The translations under genes and the position numbers were made by a program. A model generated the notes under the pieces. It ran no database searches. It was not told where the DNA came from and saw only the letters and a program-made list of their open reading frames with translations. Shown piece by piece: positions 1-40,737 of a stretch of DNA of 64,000 nucleotides. The DNA is from Halobacteriales archaeon YIM A00013 (lineage in GTDB: Archaea > Halobacteriota > Halobacteria > Halobacteriales > Haloarculaceae). Position 1 is the stretch's first letter. Every line of letters begins with the position of its first letter. The DNA lies in the NCBI GenBank assembly GCA_025041195.1, contig JAKCFM010000001.1, forward strand, positions 1,984,001 to 2,048,000, read 5' to 3'.

Positions 1-264
1 GGCGTGATAGCGCGTGATCCGCTCGATGCCAGGGAGATGTTCGTAGCTCGTCCGTTCGCTCGCAAGATCCGCCATCGTGAGTATCTGCTCGATTCGCGTT
101 GCGTGCGGACAGCCCGTCGACTGGCATGGACGGCACCACGTTCCCTGGCCGATATCCACCACGTGATAGAGCTCAGCTTCGGAGAGCTCACTCCGAGAGT
201 CAACCGTTGAAAGGTTCACGCAGTTACGATCCTCGTCCCTGAACAGAAATAGGGGGAGTGTCAT
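1..264 (-). CDS. CxxCx4CxH (SWIM-like) cassette protein, copy 1, 3' end outside window
   Basis: The first 88 codons of a gene running off the left edge. The product begins MTLPLFLFRDEDRNC and contains ELYHVVDIGQGTWCRPC, so residues around 46-56 carry the C-x2-C-x4-C-x-H cluster, followed by a helix rich in I/L. This resembles a SWIM-type zinc motif, although the classic SWIM spacing begins CxC. It is almost identical to the genes at 34190 and 40210 and related to the one at 7875. The ATG at 264 overlaps the stop of the upstream 45-codon microgene (ATGA), as in the other copies. Function unknown; metal or nucleic acid binding is inference from the Cys/His cluster. Confidence 0.75.
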   Translation of the reverse strand, partial: MTLPLFLFRDEDRNCVNLSTVDSRSELSEAELYHVVDIGQGTWCRPCQSTGCPHATRIEQILTMADLASERTSYEHLPGIERITRYHA

Positions 265-398
265 CGTCGCCCCCACAGTGGACAGCCAAGATGATGATCG
301 CGATGGCCGCGGAGCTGTCGTCGACAGACGACACAGCTGTGACTGTAGTGGTTTAGTGAGCCGGTACAATTACGTACGTCTGTGTTCTCCCATTGCAT
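261..398 (-). CDS. 45-residue four-cysteine microprotein, cassette copy 1
   Basis: ATG at 398, stop TGA at 263-261, 45 residues. It begins MQWENT and carries C11, a CVVC pair (C22, C25) and C39 in GCPLW. This is a C-x10-C-x2-C-x13-C arrangement typical of small zinc fingers. The length, cysteines and the ATGA overlap with the next gene are conserved in four copies of the window, which is strong evidence that it is translated despite its size. It is preceded by a structured leader and a TATA box. Haloarchaea are known to have many zinc-finger microproteins; which family this belongs to I cannot say. Confidence 0.7.
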   Translation of the reverse strand: MQWENTDVRNCTGSLNHYSHSCVVCRRQLRGHRDHHLGCPLWGRR

Positions 399-556
399 GG
401 GTGATCATCCGTTTGAGAGCCCAGCGTCGGGTGATCCTACCACCCGGCGCATTCAACACGAACGCGCAACGCCCGCATGGCGCAGCTCGACCCTCGTGTT
501 GCTATGCCTTCCCGATTGCATATAAAGTTATTTTGGAATAATTGTGAAAGACTGTT
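399..556 (-). promoter_or_regulatory. Promoter and structured leader of cassette copy 1
   Basis: Read on the minus strand: the box AACAGTCTTTCACAA (556-542), a TATA box ACTTTATA near 528-521, then hairpin P1 (AACACGA pairing with TCGTGTT), hairpin P2 (GCGCCGGGTG / CACCCGACGC, 450-424, one C-A mismatch) and a weaker P3 (TGGG / CCCA). The start codon lies in CCCATGCAATGGG, which can itself fold. The same order of elements precedes the copies at 34056 and 40076; the copy at 7741 shares the TATA box, P2 and P3. Confidence 0.6.
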
Positions 557-7615: not shown

Positions 7616-7740
7616 ACTTTATAACCCAGTGGGTTGGCACAATCAATTGGGAATGCCAGCCCGAAATGTGGTCGCGCGTATCAAATCGCGCCGGGTGTCA
7701 GAAGCACCCGACGCTGGGGTTCCCATGCGGACAGAAACCC
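7616..7740 (+). promoter_or_regulatory. Promoter and structured leader of cassette copy 2
   Basis: TATA box ACTTTATAA at 7616-7624 is followed by a leader with hairpin P2 (7688-7697 GCGCCGGGTG with 7705-7714 CACCCGACGC) and P3 (7715-7721 TGGGGTT with 7735-7741 AAACCCA). P2 has the same arms as the other copies but an unrelated loop (TCAGAAG). P3 differs in sequence from copies 3 and 4 but still pairs, which supports a real RNA structure. The final A of P3 is the first base of the microprotein start codon. Confidence 0.6.
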
Positions 7741-7878
7741 ATGAAGGGAAATGCACCGCGGTACTGTAATCCTGTCGTATCGTCAATGACTACCACACGC
7801 TGTGCTCGCTGTGGCCAGCCGGTGGCTCGCCAACGGGCGCACGCAACGGGCTGTCCGTCGTGGAGGGTTGGCTCGTGA
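7741..7878 (+). CDS. 45-residue four-cysteine microprotein, cassette copy 2
   Basis: ATG at 7741, 45 residues, same length as the other copies though most residues differ. Cysteines C9, CARC (C21, C24) and C38 in TGCPSW align with those of copies 1, 3 and 4. A longer reading frame opens upstream at 7666 but would start inside the leader. The stop TGA overlaps the GTG start of the next gene. Conservation of length, cysteines and coupling in a divergent copy argues for a real protein, probably zinc-binding. Confidence 0.7.
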   Translation: MKGNAPRYCNPVVSSMTTTRCARCGQPVARQRAHATGCPSWRVGS

Positions 7879-8399
7879 GTCTTCCACAGTTCAGCTTTCG
7901 AACGATAGATGGGCAGGTCAGCACGCTGGAGGGGATCGATACTCGCGAGGAGCTTTCCTCTGCTGAGTTGCATCACGTTGTGGACATCGCCGAAAACTGC
8001 TGGTGTCGGCCCTGTCAGTCAACCGAGTGCCGGCACAGTCGTCAGGTTGAGGAGGTGCTCGCGATTGCTGATCTGAGCGAGCGCTCGGGCGGGGGTCCTG
8101 ATGCGCTTCCGTCGCTTGATCGGATTACTCGGTTTCGCTCGCAGGGCGAGACGATCTACACCGCCTGGTTCGACAATGATGCGCGACTGCGTGCGCACGA
8201 ACAGCGATCGGGTGACGTGACGTTGTTGGCGTTTTCTCCGGATCGACCGGAGGATCCGGCACGGGCGCAGACGCAGGACGAGGCTGTGTCTGCAGCGAGC
8301 TGTTTGCTCAATAGGGTCGTGAAGTTCTGCGACGCACGATCTACCGAGGAACTCCCTGCGCTCCTTGAGCTACTAGTTTCACCAGCACACTGCAACTAA
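7875..8399 (+). CDS. CxxCx4CxH (SWIM-like) cassette protein, copy 2
   Basis: 174 residues from a GTG that overlaps the microprotein stop (GTGA). An upstream in-frame ATG at 7860 would lie inside the microgene. It shares ELHHVVDI, WCRPCQSTECRHSR and a downstream RITRFRSQGET with the group at 40210 (there RITRYRATGET). The Cys/His cluster is followed by a helix (QVEEVLAIADL). The C-terminal third (from about residue 115) is different from the 40210 type and is duplicated at 8536-8717. Function unknown; a nucleic-acid-binding or regulatory role together with the microprotein is inference. Confidence 0.75.
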   Translation: MSLPQFSFRTIDGQVSTLEGIDTREELSSAELHHVVDIAENCWCRPCQSTECRHSRQVEEVLAIADLSERSGGGPDALPSLDRITRFRSQGETIYTAWFDNDARLRAHEQRSGDVTLLAFSPDRPEDPARAQTQDEAVSAASCLLNRVVKFCDARSTEELPALLELLVSPAHCN

Positions 8400-8420
8400 C
8401 CCCCGCGGTGGGTTCTTTTG

Positions 8421-8532
8421 AAACCGCGTGTGGCTAGAATCACCCACCGCGAGCGGAGCGAGCGGCCTTTTTTCATCAACGTTTTTTCGACGAGTGGTGA
8501 GCGGAGCGAACCCGAGTCTAAAAAAGGTTGGA
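8421..8532 (+). repeat. Dispersed repeat A, copy A1
   Basis: About 110 bp beginning AAACCGCGTGTGGCTAGAAT, with a GC-rich imperfect hairpin (CCGC/GCGG) followed by TTTTTT, then a second hairpin-like block (GTGAGCGGAGCGAAC) and AAAAAAGG. It follows the cassette gene stop. The GC hairpin plus T6 looks like a terminator. Copies A2 (8739) and A3 (11293) share the frame but differ in the hairpin sequences. Confidence 0.6.
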
Positions 8533-8535
8533 GGC

Positions 8536-8717
8536 TGACGTTGTTGGCGTTTTCTCCGGATCGGCCGGAGGACCCGGCTCGTGCGCAGACACAAGACGAG
8601 GCTGTGTCTGCTGCGAGCTGTTTGCTAGAAGCTGTCGTTCCGTTCTGTGAAGCTCGATCGACCGAGGAACTTCCAGTGATCCTCCAGCTGTTGGTCTCCC
8701 CAGCGCACTGCGAATAA
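8536..8717 (+). pseudogene. Remnant: C-terminal 60 codons of another cassette gene
   Basis: Ungapped 182-bp homologue of 8218-8399, ending at the same stop codon position. The encoded segment begins LTLLAFSPDRPEDPARAQ, and most differences from the full gene are silent third-position changes. This points to an old paralogue whose front part was lost, not a fresh duplication. An ATG at 8418 opens an in-frame 99-codon reading through repeat A1 into this segment, but that N-terminus is repeat DNA. The unit including the following repeat A2 makes a tandem duplication of about 318 bp. Confidence 0.65.
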
Positions 8718-8738
8718 CCTCTACGACGGATTCTTTTG

Positions 8739-8849
8739 AAACCGCGTGTGGCTAGAATCACCCACCGCGAGCGCAGCGAGCGGCCTTTTTTCATCAACGT
8801 TTTTTGCGGGAGTGGTTGCCGGAGGCAACCCGACCGGAAAAAAGGTTGG
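8739..8849 (+). repeat. Dispersed repeat A, copy A2
   Basis: Same element as A1. Its second hairpin is GTTGCC-GGA-GGCAAC (8816-8830 region), a perfect 6-bp stem with a different sequence from the other copies, indicating that the pairing rather than the sequence is kept. The GC block is followed by TTTTTT as in a terminator. Confidence 0.6.
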
Positions 8850-28461: not shown

Positions 28462-28968
28462 TTACAGGATTCCAAGTGGAACGATTCCCAGGAGATCACC
28501 AAGGATTCCAAGCGGAACGATTCCCAGCAGGTCGCCGAGAATTCCGAGTGGGATGCTCCCCAGCAGGTCGCCAAGGATTCCAAGCGGAAGGGTGCCCACG
28601 ATGCTGCCGAGTGGTCCCAGCGGAACGTTCCCTAGGACACCACCGAGAAGTCCGAGCGGACCCAACGGAACGTTACCAAGGAGACTACCCAGAAGGCCAA
28701 GCGGAACGATTCCCAGCAGGTCACCGAGGATTCCCAATGGAAGGTTTCCAAGGAGGTCACCCATGAGACCCAACGGGGCGATCCCGAGGAGGCCGCCAAG
28801 AAGTCCAATCGGCGTTACCGTGATTGCCTCAGTGACTGGCAGGCTGAGCTCACCCATTCCCAGCGCAAGCGGGAACAGTCCCACAACGCCGAAAACCGGA
28901 GAGCTTGACACCTGATCGTCAGTGTCGATGTCCAGCTGCTCGTTATCGAGCGTGTCTGATTGTGACAT
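28462..28968 (-). CDS. Protein of tandem 12-residue PLGxLGxLLGxx repeats
   Basis: 168 residues. Acidic N-terminus (MSQSDTLDNEQLDIDTDDQ), then from residue 53 to the end about nine and a half copies of a 12-residue unit such as PLGILGDLLGIV; one unit is 15 residues. The body is made almost only of G, L, I, P, V with periodic D or N. No signal peptide. A TATA box (ATATATATTAAT) ends about 29 bp before the ATG, so it is probably transcribed leaderless. I recognise no family. A structural or membrane-associated role is possible. The repetitive DNA makes unit number prone to change. Confidence 0.65.
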   Translation of the reverse strand: MSQSDTLDNEQLDIDTDDQVSSSPVFGVVGLFPLALGMGELSLPVTEAITVTPIGLLGGLLGIAPLGLMGDLLGNLPLGILGDLLGIVPLGLLGSLLGNVPLGPLGLLGGVLGNVPLGPLGSIVGTLPLGILGDLLGSIPLGILGDLLGIVPLGILGDLLGIVPLGIL

Positions 28969-33896: not shown

Positions 33897-34055
33897 AACA
33901 GTCTTTCACAAATATTCCAACATAATGTTATAACCAATCGGGAAGGTATTGGAACACGAGAGCACAGATGCGCCACGGGGCGTTGTGCGTTCGTGTATGA
34001 ACGCGCCGGGTGGTAAGGTCACCCGACGCTGGGCTCTCGTCAAGGCGATTTGCCC
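33897..34055 (+). promoter_or_regulatory. Promoter and structured leader of cassette copy 3
   Basis: Box AACAGTCTTTCACAA (33897-33911), TATA-like GTTATAA (33927-33933), P1 (ACACGA / TCGTGT), P2 (34003-34012 with 34020-34029) and P3 (TGGGC 34030-34034 with GCCCA 34052-34056). P3 competes with CCCAT-GCA-ATGGG (34053-34065), which contains the start codon. Confidence 0.65.
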
Positions 34056-34193
34056 ATGCAATGGGAGAACACACGCAACCGTAATTGTACCGACTCGTTG
34101 AACCACTACAGCTACAGCTGTGTCGTCTGTCGCAGACACCTTCGTGGGCACCGTGATCATCATCTTGGCTGCCCGCTGTGGGGGCGGCGATGA
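34056..34193 (+). CDS. 45-residue four-cysteine microprotein, cassette copy 3
   Basis: ATG 34056, 45 residues, nearly identical to copies 1 and 4: MQWENTRNRNC, then CVVC and HHLGCPLW. Its frame is intact even though the coupled downstream gene carries a stop codon. The stop overlaps the ATG of that gene. Confidence 0.7.
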   Translation: MQWENTRNRNCTDSLNHYSYSCVVCRRHLRGHRDHHLGCPLWGRR

Positions 34194-34720
34194 CACTGCC
34201 GCTGTTTCTCTTTCGTGATGAAGATCGCAACTGTGTGAACCTCTCCACGGTGGGTTCCCGAAGCGAACTTTCTGAAGCGGAGCTCTATCATGTGGTGGAT
34301 ATCGGCCAAGGGACGTGGTGTCGGCCGTGTCAATCGACCGGTTGTCCGCATGCCACCAGGATCGAGCAGATTCTAACAATGGCCGATCTGGCGAGTGAAC
34401 GAACGAGGTTTGAGCACTTGCCTGGGATCGAGCAGATCACGCGCTATCGTGCCACCGGGGAGACGGTCGTGGCCGCGACGTTCGACACTGCCGCGAAGGT
34501 TCGATAGCACGAGACGAACACCGGCGAAATTCATCAGCTCACCTTCTCCGCTGACGATCCGAAATCACCACTCGAACGGATCGACCGACCTGGCTGTTCC
34601 AGTGCAGCAGATGGGTTGATCGACCTGCTCGATGCGTACGGACGCTATCGCAGTCTCGGCTGTCCAACCGGCCTCAAAGATCAACATCCTGCGGTGGCTC
34701 GGATTACAACCGATAGCTAG
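34190..34720 (+). pseudogene. CxxCx4CxH cassette gene, copy 3, with an in-frame TAG
   Basis: Reads as an intact homologue of the gene at 40210 through TFDTAAKVR, then TAG at 34505-34507 where copy 4 has TAT (Tyr). The frame continues without further damage (HETNTGEIHQ...) to TAG at 34718-34720, 176 codons in all. The N-terminal 105 residues, including the Cys/His cluster, could still be made. A single point mutation explains the break, so the loss is probably recent. Confidence 0.75.
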
Positions 34721-36313: not shown

Positions 36314-36970
36314 TTAATCATCCGTCTCAAATTCCTCGTAATGGAGTGTTTCTTTCAATTGGAGCATCTCGGTTCCAACGATTTCAGTTGAGATAGGAGC
36401 GGCGACTTCAACGCGAACCAGTGGTGATCCGCCTTCTACATCCTCGGGGCGAGAAAACGTCGTGGCGAACGTGTAGCCGGTCGTTTCTTGCCCCGTTTGT
36501 AGCCGTACACGCCAAACACTGGTCGTCTCCGTGTGGTTCTCGTGCAGTATCGCATCTGAGGACTCCGTTTCGTCGGTCGGAGTGACGGTTGAGCGTCGCG
36601 TCGGATTCGCCATACGGCTCCGGTCTGTCGGACCCATTCGAATATGTGTAACATCGATTCCGTTGTTGGCTCGCACTTCTTTGCAGTCCGTGCCGCCCGT
36701 GAGCACGTTTATTCGTGTCATACAAACCAGCAACCGCTCCTCACCACGGTCGTATTCCTGAACAGAGGCATCGAGGTAAACGGTGCCGTTTGGACACCCC
36801 CCGACCGATCGTGTTACTGCCGCAACCCGTGGAGCAACGGTGTATGAGGGGGTCTGAACGTTTCCTCCGAGCGACGCCGGCGTTCCAGTTCCTGTGTCGG
36901 TAAGCGCACTCCCAACGAAACCACCGACTGCAAAACTACCAATCTGCAACACTCGGCGACGCGTGAACAT
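36314..36970 (-). CDS. Tat-exported protein of unknown function, paralogue of 39177
   Basis: 218 residues. Twin-arginine signal MFTRRRVLQIGSFAVGGFVG. Shares with the gene at 39177 the signal, QEYDRGEERLL, PTDET, a nearly identical HTETTSVWRVRL, and YTFATTF. Four mature-part cysteines (CPNG, LVC, DC region) may form disulfides. The strand-rich middle suggests a beta-sandwich. ATG 36970 gives the usual Tat N-terminus. The two paralogues flank an MFS/regulator module. Function unknown. Confidence 0.7.
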   Translation of the reverse strand: MFTRRRVLQIGSFAVGGFVGSALTDTGTGTPASLGGNVQTPSYTVAPRVAAVTRSVGGCPNGTVYLDASVQEYDRGEERLLVCMTRINVLTGGTDCKEVRANNGIDVTHIRMGPTDRSRMANPTRRSTVTPTDETESSDAILHENHTETTSVWRVRLQTGQETTGYTFATTFSRPEDVEGGSPLVRVEVAAPISTEIVGTEMLQLKETLHYEEFETDD

Positions 36971-37131
36971 ACCTACACCTACTCTCGGCACACTACAATG
37001 ATTTTTGAAATATAATTTAAACAGTAGTTCCCCGATCCACCCTGTTGGGCAGGGGACTCTGCACTTGATTGATCACTTCAAGCAGATCAAAGGCCGATCA
37101 TTATGGGGAGAGAACTATCATTGGTGATATG

Positions 37132-39176: not shown

Positions 39177-39830
39177 TTACGAATCTTCGATTTCGTCGTA
39201 TCTCAGCGTCGCCGTCAATCGCATTGTGTGGGTTCCGTAGAGTAGCTCTGGAACCGGAACGTCGGCCGTGACATCGAGAAGCGGCGTTCCGGCGTTTACG
39301 TCCACGGGTCGTTCGAAGGTGGTCGCGAACGTGTAAGAGATCGTGCTTTGCTTGCCAGACCGCAGGCGCACTCGCCAGACGCTGGTCGTCTCCGTGTGAT
39401 CCTCATTCAACAGCGCCTCGTAGGGGTCCGTCTCATCCGTTGGAACGACCGTCGAGCGCTGTGTCGGTTTTGATGAAAACCGATCCAGTTCACCCAGCAG
39501 GGTGTGTTTCAGATCAATCCCTTCGTGTCCCTTTCCAGACGAACAGCCCGAGTGACCGGAGACCACCATCACCTCTGTGGTGCACGCCAGCAGTCGCTGA
39601 TCGCCGCGGTCGTACTCCTGGACACGAGTGTCGATCCCCAATTTGCCGTACGGACAGTCCTCGAATTCTCGTCTGCTGGACGCAACCGTGGGCGCAACGC
39701 TCGATGGCAGCCGCTGGATGGAGCCCTTGATGTTCGCTGGCGTTCCAGCGCCGTTGCTCGTGAGCGCACTCCCAACGAGTCCCCCAACCGCGAAGCAGCC
39801 GAGCTGTAAGACACGGCGTCGCGTTGGCAT
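39177..39830 (-). CDS. Tat-exported protein of unknown function, paralogue of 36314
   Basis: 217 residues. Signal MPTRRRVLQLGCFAVGGLVG, then QEYDRGDQRLLACTT, VPTDET, HTETTSVWRVRL and YTFATTF shared with 36314. Divergent from cassette copy 4. Shared motifs mark a family of at least two members in this window; no known domain recognised. Confidence 0.7.
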   Translation of the reverse strand: MPTRRRVLQLGCFAVGGLVGSALTSNGAGTPANIKGSIQRLPSSVAPTVASSRREFEDCPYGKLGIDTRVQEYDRGDQRLLACTTEVMVVSGHSGCSSGKGHEGIDLKHTLLGELDRFSSKPTQRSTVVPTDETDPYEALLNEDHTETTSVWRVRLRSGKQSTISYTFATTFERPVDVNAGTPLLDVTADVPVPELLYGTHTMRLTATLRYDEIEDS

Positions 39831-39916: not shown

Positions 39917-40075
39917 AACAGTCTTTCACAATTATTTCAACACAACTTTATAAGCAATCGGGAAGGCATTGCAACACGAGAGCACAGGTGCGCCGCGCGG
40001 GCGTTGCGCGTTCGTGTTGAATGCGCCGGGTGCTAAGGTCACCCGACGCTGGGCTCTCAAACGGAGAGATTGCCC
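39917..40075 (+). promoter_or_regulatory. Promoter and structured leader of cassette copy 4
   Basis: Box AACAGTCTTTCACAA (39917-39931), TATA ACTTTATAA (39945-39953), P1 (AACACGA / TCGTGTT), P2 (40023-40032 with 40040-40049), P3 (TGGGC-TCTC 40050-40058 with GAGA and GCCCA ending at 40076). The alternative P4 is CCCAT-GCA-ATGGG (40073-40085) over the start codon. Expected transcript start about 25 bp after the TATA box gives a leader of about 100 nt. Confidence 0.65.
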
Positions 40076-40213
40076 ATGCAATGGGAGAACACACGCGACC
40101 GTAATTGTACCGACTCGATGAACGTCTATAGTCACAGCTGTGTCGTCTGTCGTCGCCAACTCCGTGGCCACCGTGATCATCATCTTGGCTGTCCGCTGTG
40201 GGGGCGACGATGA
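40076..40213 (+). CDS. 45-residue four-cysteine microprotein, cassette copy 4
   Basis: ATG 40076, 45 residues: MQWENTRDRNC, SHSCVVC, HHLGCPLWGRR. Cysteines 11, 22, 25 and 39 match the other copies. Its TGA overlaps the ATG of the next gene, so translation is coupled. Probably a zinc-binding microprotein. Confidence 0.72.
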   Translation: MQWENTRDRNCTDSMNVYSHSCVVCRRQLRGHRDHHLGCPLWGRR

Positions 40214-40737
40214 CACTGCCGTTATTTCTCTTTCGTGACGAGGATCGCAACTGTGTGAACCTCTCGACGGTCGATTCTCGGGGCGAGCTCTCGGAGGCCG
40301 AGCTCTACCACGTGGTGGATATCGGTCAGGGGACGTGGTGTCGGCCGTGTCAATCGACGGGCTGTCCACACGCAACGCGTATTGAACAGATTCTGACGAT
40401 GGCTGATCTCGCGAGTGAACGGACGAGTTACGAGCACCTGCCTGGAATTGAGCGGATTACACGCTATCGCGCAACGGGAGAAACGGTCGTGGCAGCGACG
40501 TTCGATACGGGTGCGAAGGTCCGCTATCACGAAACGAACAACGGCGAAATCCACCAGTTGACCTTTCCGGCAGAAGATCCGAAATCACCACTCGAACGGA
40601 TCGACCGACCTGGCTGTGCGAGTGCGGCGGATGGATTGATTGAACTGCTTGACTCGTATGGTCGGTATCGCAGTCTCGGCTGTCCGACTGGGCTCGCGGA
40701 TCAACATCCTGCGGTGGCTCGGATTACGACCGAGTAG
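40210..40737 (+). CDS. CxxCx4CxH (SWIM-like) cassette protein, copy 4 (intact)
   Basis: 175 residues from ATG 40210 (a GTG 12 bp upstream lies inside the microgene). The N-terminal region ends in ELYHVVDIGQGTWCRPC, with the C-x2-C-x4-C-x-H cluster followed by helix ATRIEQILTMADLA. A middle strand-rich part (RITRYRATGETVVAATFDT) and a C-terminal helical part (GLIELLDSYGRYRSLGCPTG) follow. It is the only complete member of the group I type here. No enzyme motif; nucleic-acid or protein binding by the Cys/His cluster is inference. Confidence 0.78.
   Translation: MTLPLFLFRDEDRNCVNLSTVDSRGELSEAELYHVVDIGQGTWCRPCQSTGCPHATRIEQILTMADLASERTSYEHLPGIERITRYRATGETVVAATFDTGAKVRYHETNNGEIHQLTFPAEDPKSPLERIDRPGCASAADGLIELLDSYGRYRSLGCPTGLADQHPAVARITTE

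Follow-up and report, generated by a model that had tools for sequence, protein, structure and literature searches.

The window, i.e., the whole 64-kb stretch of DNA that was analyzed, corresponds to G000:C1:1984001-2048000 of a 3.73 Mb haloarchaeal genome, G000. It contains four copies of a cassette in which a TATA box and a structured RNA leader precede a 45-codon microgene and a second, overlapping gene. A fifth tail lies downstream of copy 2. All five are found where a reading made from the sequence alone had placed them, with TATA boxes and leaders as that sequence-only reading described. The features are as follows.

409..516, minus strand: copy 1 leader RNA (covariance-model match; loop GTAGGAT at 434-440)
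261..398, minus strand: copy 1 gene for the 45-aa microprotein
1..264, minus strand: copy 1 second gene, truncated at the window edge (complete at G000:C1:1983740-1984264)
7628..7730, plus strand: copy 2 (group 2) leader RNA (covariance-model match; loop TCAGAAG at 7698-7704)
7741..7878, plus strand: copy 2 gene for the 45-aa microprotein
7875..8399, plus strand: copy 2 second gene, 174 aa, with a GTG start
8536..8719, plus strand: duplicated tail of the copy 2 second gene, 81.5% identity
33937..34044, plus strand: copy 3 leader RNA (covariance-model match; loop GTAAGGT at 34013-34019)
34056..34193, plus strand: copy 3 gene for the 45-aa microprotein
34190..34720, plus strand: copy 3 second gene, interrupted by an in-frame TAG at 34505-34507
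39946..39953, plus strand: copy 4 TATA box CTTTATAA (sequence; same position in the aligned copies)
39957..40064, plus strand: copy 4 leader RNA (covariance-model match of 87.5 bits; covariation)
39978..39983, plus strand: copy 4 P1 5′ strand GAGAGC (sequence, covariation)
40027..40045, plus strand: copy 4 P4 hairpin CGGGTG-loop-CACCCG (sequence, covariation)
40033..40039, plus strand: copy 4 hypervariable loop CTAAGGT (comparison of copies)
40048..40058, plus strand: copy 4 P1 3′ strand GCTGGGCTCTC; alternative pairing with the start-codon region (P5) possible
40076..40213, plus strand: copy 4 gene for the 45-aa CCHC microprotein (codons 1-18 almost without synonymous change across copies)
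40210..40737, plus strand: copy 4 gene for the 175-aa CxxCx4CxH protein, with an ATGA overlap

The microgene is 45 codons long in the window copies, as first read, and the second gene overlaps it through ATGA in copies 1, 3, and 4 and through GTGA in copy 2. The division into two sequence groups also stands: group 1 copies in the window are 81-85% identical in DNA, and group 2 aligns with them only in short stretches. Proteins of group 1 are 90-100% identical to one another and about 42% identical to those of group 2, the second protein having 175 residues in the former and 174 in the latter. Copy 3 (33897-34720) is the one broken member. The apparent concentration of copies in 41 kb holds for the window but needs correction for the genome, where 23 full copies (12 of group 1 and 11 of group 2), plus tail fragments, are dispersed, one of them on contig 3. 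A copy on this small contig (L111, G000:C3:203779) lies near an apparent CRISPR array whose repeat ends in CGGGATTGAAAC. The claim of selection is upheld, and a chance origin is excluded, because the dN/dS of the second gene is 0.06-0.16 among intact copies and the leader covaries.

Between the end of copy 2 and its duplicated tail lies a palindromic element. Such palindromic, MITE-like elements (CCCACC...CGCGAGCGGAGCGAGCGGCCTTTTTT...AAAAAAGGTGGG) occur at the 3′ ends of group 2 copies, with duplicated gene tails between them, at 8400-8535 and 8720-8800 of the window and also at L014, L015, L019, and L202. Other neighbors include two paralogous proteins with a secretion-type N-terminus, encoded on the minus strand at 36314-36991 and 39177-39830, between or beside copies 3 and 4, and a repetitive protein of LGILGDLLG-like units, possibly membrane-embedded, encoded on the minus strand at 28462-28968.

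Both gene products are Cys/His proteins, as first described. Without exception, 27 members carry the microprotein motif C-x2-C-x9-H-x3-C, from which we infer zinc binding. The Haloferax C(P)XCG proteins are one-domain zinc-finger micro-proteins (PMC11241148), and the microprotein resembles them in being haloarchaeal, shorter than 70 aa, and equipped with zinc-finger-type Cys motifs. It differs in the spacing of its motif, in standing behind a putative RNA switch, and in overlapping a second gene. The second protein bears C-x2-C-x4-C-x-H and has no match in Pfam or NCBIfam and no significant match among PDB sequences. Its AlphaFold model is weak (pLDDT 66) and gave no structural match with E <= 0.001, although it places a helix after the motif, as in SWIM proteins (PF04434). 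A further likeness is that the leader elsewhere stands upstream of true SWIM proteins, two of which exceed the Pfam cut-off (L366 and L376) while a third falls just below it (L232). Membership of the SWIM zinc finger family was rejected, as no profile matched and the motif begins with C-x2-C instead of C-x-C (CxxCx4CxH, not CxCxnCxH). The CCHC microprotein and the SWIM-like second protein are both probably nucleic-acid or protein binders.

Several copies carry a 46-50 nt insert of two hairpins (CCGAGC-GAA-GCTCGG-CTGCTAACC...GGTGATG) at one and the same codon in the CxxC motif: L090, L091, L092, L093, and L122 of genome G005 and L144, L145, L146, L147, and L150 of G004. The insert adds in-frame stops or a frameshift, while the frame downstream is still mostly conserved (dN/dS 0.11-0.18) and the insert's stems differ compensatorily. 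Such an insert may represent a small element or a spliced intron.

The cassette and its leader differ in distribution. Among 59 relatives searched, the 175-aa protein was found only in genomes of the same genus, at 1 to about 31 full copies each. A 391-genome sample of the class gave just two short, weak matches outside the genus, and in a collection of named genomes the protein occurs only in Actinarchaeum halophilum YIM 93972 and strain YIM A00010. The former forms hyphae and spores, and the latter is one of six morphogenetic strains sequenced alongside it (PMC10067837). Searches of IMG/VR, phages, and plasmids gave no match to the protein, and a viral or plasmid origin was discarded; a loose scan of viral contigs returned scattered matches to a very short pattern, which were taken as background. 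The three-part cassette is therefore confined to one genus, Actinarchaeum included, in which genome G002 has a single copy of the same architecture. The sequence-only reading had treated the cassette as the conserved unit, with the microprotein and 175-aa protein expected as a pair in many genomes. This is not supported: in many genera the leader is present but neither this microgene nor this protein follows it, an outcome that the sequence-only reading had itself named as refuting. In addition, locus L202 (G005:C1:969782) has an orphan leader and microgene without the second gene, a palindromic element beginning where that gene would be expected to start.

The widespread conserved element is the leader alone. 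A first covariance model, built from 83 leaders, found it in three new genera of the family, four in all, ahead of different genes, among them a SWIM protein in G099 and CxxC proteins in G002, G003, and G004. A second model found it in 70 of the 391 Halobacteria genomes and in 33 of 86 genera, at a cut-off of E <= 1e-4 per genome, which at face value predicts about 0.04 chance genomes, the E-values being rough. Several genomes have eight or more copies by this model. Outside the cassette, the genes downstream are small, SWIM, HalOD1-like, or CxxC genes. In Natrialbaceae, the leader is followed by a short ORF with a conserved start (e.g., MIGLLLRGLKHPVRQTNRS) and then by small HalOD1-like or CxxC genes. 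Megaplasmids of Natrinema, Natribaculum, Halomontanus, and Halopiger bear the leader, unannotated. A phylum sample, its make-up outside the order only partly listed, gave no leader match outside the order. The claim of a multi-copy, undescribed unit with a structured leader is borne out. No Rfam family matches the leader (best weak match 15.2 bits, against a gathering threshold of 39). The leader is also absent from the open-access papers searched, a narrow base and hence weak evidence of novelty.

The leader is about 100 nt long. A long closing helix, P1, encloses hairpins that include P3 and P4, and P4 has a near-invariant GGGUG/CACCC stem beneath an open loop of 6 or 7 bases. In one group the stem reads AGGUG/CACCU, a change that is itself compensatory. 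The order TATA box, leader, ATG is kept in the aligned copies and at loci outside the genus; with the transcription start inferred, this order places the leader in the 5′ UTR. The predicted secondary structure is supported by two tests. First, P1 pairing is -21.2 kcal/mol within a copy versus -19.4 between copies of the same group (0 of 2000 permutations). Second, in a cross-genus alignment, 17 of 23 pairs show compensatory changes (0 of 500 shuffles) and 95% of cells pair versus 35-48% when slid; this alignment was fitted to the structure and is thus biased toward pairing, a bias of which the within-copy P1 test is free. Folding energies were computed under standard conditions, not haloarchaeal salt.

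The bases that lead up to the start codon, and part of the codon itself, are complementary to the 3′ strand of P1 as well, which gives an alternative helix, P5. Examples are CGUGGCUUC with GAAGCCAUG in Natrialbaceae, GGGCUCUC with GAGA..GCCCAUG in copy 4, and GGGUUCU with AGAACCCAUG in G005. P1 and P5 are mutually exclusive, i.e., they cannot form jointly. Averaged over 132 loci, P5 pairing of a leader with its own start region is -11.56, compared to -9.35 +/- 0.20 for permuted partners (0 of 2000). The 42 out-of-genus loci taken alone also pair better with their own partner (0 of 5000), and the start region lay outside the model that found these loci. Eight Halomontanus copies have an altered apical P5 stem in which pairing is kept. 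In G003 and G004, the start regions of the copies are so alike that a leader's own start region gives no better P5 pairing than that of another copy. P1 is predicted to be more stable than P5 in all groups, with a mean difference of -0.7 to -9.5 kcal/mol (37 °C, without high salt), and therefore switching would need a trigger.

At 36 loci outside the genus, a further hairpin begins at a constant +20/21 from the ATG. As its second pair, 19 of these loci have A-T and the other 17 G-C, with no mixtures. In this genus, microgene codons 1-18 show a synonymous change of 0.02-0.09 versus 0.27-0.35 in the remainder. Because the hairpin covaries and these codons are near-frozen, the RNA element probably extends into the reading frame. 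Taken together, the pairing data suggest that the leader is a translational on/off switch acting at the start codon. This putative two-state switch is the best supported part of the mechanism proposed below.

The putative switch and the hypervariable P4 loop are the two most telling features of the cassette, and the sequence-only reading missed both. Among 91 copies there are 79 distinct loops, while the remainder of the leader is near-frozen. Across 15 orthologous pairs from G000 and G001, with orthology judged from a few kilobases of flanking sequence, 48 of 102 loop positions differ (47%), compared to 7% and 5% in the adjoining leader, 10% downstream, and 12.5% in the promoter. Natrialbaceae orthologs include TCCATAG versus CTGTAA (flanks about 90% identical) and CTCAAGA versus GTTACAG (87-92%); other loop pairs of this family differ little. 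At one locus of Halomontanus rarus, strains KZCA124 and TS33 have CTTGTGA and CTAGAA, with upstream sequence 97.8% identical over 2261 bp, and two paralogs with a 100%-identical upstream leader have CTTGAA and CTAGAA. Within a genome nearly all loops are distinct (22/22, 19/19, 30/30, and 14/15). The variation has rules, as follows. One closing Watson-Crick pair is found in 132 loops versus 40.4 expected (0 of 5000). Of the 93 7-mer loops, 89 have a purine at position 6, 3 have T at position 4, and most have a pyrimidine at position 2. Loops of 6 bases make up more than a quarter of the total. By this composition the loop is apparently held open and exposed while its letters turn over. The pyrimidine-2/purine-6 pattern resembles the U-turn loops that serve RNA-RNA contact in antisense RNAs. 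We know of no RNA of this kind with a loop that differs at almost every copy.

A variable spacer between inverted arms could also belong to DNA. In that case the cassette would be a mobile element, with GGGTG-N7-CACCC serving as its recombination core and each insertion altering the spacer in the manner of Tn916-like coupling sequences. The inverted arms do flank a variable 6-7 base spacer, and copy number is lineage-specific. However, no half-sites or core insertions were found: the 3′-half occurrences examined in six genomes are intact hairpins, and the avoidance of closing pairs and the strand asymmetry point to RNA. As for the element, G000 and G001 have most copies at matching chromosomal sites, with fewer sites in common with G003 and G005, and the cassette has no recognizable transposase or recombinase, only two ORFs, the larger without a Pfam match. 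We consider this explanation very improbable. Of the earlier proposal that the cassette spreads and decays, the broken members and lineage-specific copy numbers stand, and mobility is not supported. An empty-site search at one site found the corresponding region absent from G001. The loop as address of an insertion site or cis target was rejected also: neither the loop nor its complement is enriched in the cassette that bears it, in the flanks of that cassette, or in sibling cassettes of the genome.

Flanks of some cassette copies are exchanged between G000 (1502225, 382755) and G001 (905521, 909828), and likewise between G000 (1984449, 2092574) and G001 (1372722), as if chromosomal rearrangements broke at cassette copies.

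Alternatively, the leader may sense a protein or metabolite, its apical loop being a mutation hot spot that is free of pairing constraint, with ectopic gene conversion spreading the loops. The hot spot could arise through, e.g., cruciform formation or hairpin processing of the DNA. Loops do move between loci with neighboring sequence, as GTCCAAG with a similar spacer is found at non-orthologous sites of G000 and G001, and the same loops recur in distant genera (e.g., TCCATAG and GTAAGAG), although such recurrence also fits a limited functional vocabulary. Composition weighs against neutrality: the near absence of closing pairs, the purine at position 6, and the near exclusion of T from position 4 are far from random, which argues for selection on the loop itself. 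Both the sensing leader with its unconstrained loop and the suggested DNA-level cause are rather unlikely but deserve to be kept in mind.

Much less probable is that P4 reads or mimics tRNA anticodon loops, either as a T-box-like tRNA sensor or as a decoy for an anticodon nuclease. The 5-bp stem and the frequent 7-base loop with U33-like and purine-37-like positions recall an anticodon arm, and triplets at positions 3-5 equal an anticodon of the genome somewhat more often than in column shuffles (42 versus 32.6), a weak excess because the loops are not independent. Yet over a quarter of loops are a base short, and stop-codon triplets are present. Complementarity to anticodon loops is not enriched (14 versus 17.5), no exact complement was found, and a T-box or tRNA-sensing leader was accordingly set aside.

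We propose instead that the structured mRNA leader is itself the conserved unit and switches translation in cis. With P1 and the junction folded, the start codon of the first small ORF would be free; opening of P1 would allow P5 to form and hide it. The P4 loop, being open and variable, is taken as the contact site of a partner that would stabilize or destabilize the folded state. Since nearly all copies differ in their loop, each would have an address of its own. The partner is most likely another RNA, either a cis-encoded antisense RNA or an RNA acting in trans. Against it, searches in cis, among sibling cassettes, and among anticodon loops turned up no such partner. The products are small Cys-rich proteins, in this genus the CCHC microprotein overlapped by the SWIM-like protein. 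We give a probability of roughly 0.55 to this reading, in which the leader is a riboregulator acting in cis and its loop, specific to each copy, is where a partner, most likely RNA, makes contact. Its stronger form, that a fixed switch is joined to a rapidly renewed 6-7 base address through which each family member answers its own RNA partner, is put forward tentatively.

A different use of antisense RNA would be escape from self-silencing: each locus would make an antisense RNA over its leader that represses every copy with a matching loop, so that new loops escape and diversify fast. This would account for the distinct loops within a genome, for the divergence between orthologs and strains, and for the open loop, and it requires no second copy of the loop in cis, as an antisense RNA matches automatically. 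An AT-rich, TATA-like antisense motif after the start codon was dropped as evidence, since it falls in the covarying +20/21 hairpin, which indicates an RNA rather than a promoter constraint. Recent, near-identical duplicates sharing one loop (GTTAGGT in G001), and GTAAGAG present twice in G373, also speak against escape, which we regard as a minority possibility. Antisense-controlled loops are found in ColE1 RNAI/II, R1 CopA/CopT, and IS10 RNA-OUT, and in ColE1-type plasmids new loops define new incompatibility groups. The P4 loop resembles these in that a short, exposed, U-turn-like loop diversifies on a fixed stem. Unlike them, it belongs to chromosomal and megaplasmid gene families rather than to one replicon or insertion sequence, and its antisense RNA is hypothetical.

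Few archaeal cis-regulatory RNAs are known (PMC7247131, PMC8241225). They include the S15 leader of Halobacteria (PMC7247131) and the fluoride riboswitch of Thermococcus kodakarensis, as cited in PMC8241225. Like archaeal translational riboswitches and ribosomal-protein leaders, the RNA described here is a structured 5′ leader with covarying helices, and, as in translational riboswitches, a mutually exclusive helix can form at the translation start. It differs from them in its hypervariable apical loop, in its tens of dispersed copies per genome, in lacking an Rfam match, and in preceding mostly small Cys-rich proteins. A loop wholly changed between strains of one species, in an RNA otherwise near-frozen, is the pattern expected of recognition conflicts or private addressing, not of ordinary riboswitches. 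If the stronger form of the proposal, with its rapidly renewed address, is correct, haloarchaea would have an RNA-level private-key system whose key is renewed within species by an active or strongly selected mechanism. The leader is class-wide, multi-copy, and outside Rfam, and its apparent two-state start-codon switch is directly testable. What reads the loop is a tractable question, as the archaeal group has working genetics, and in this genus the leader occurs in hypha- and spore-forming archaea.

Four plasmids of Halomontanus rarus KZCA124 carry RNA copies (L437, L438, L439, and L440) with the same divergent neighbor, a gene for transcription initiation factor IIB (TFB), and the distance from the RNA to this gene is nearly constant on all four.
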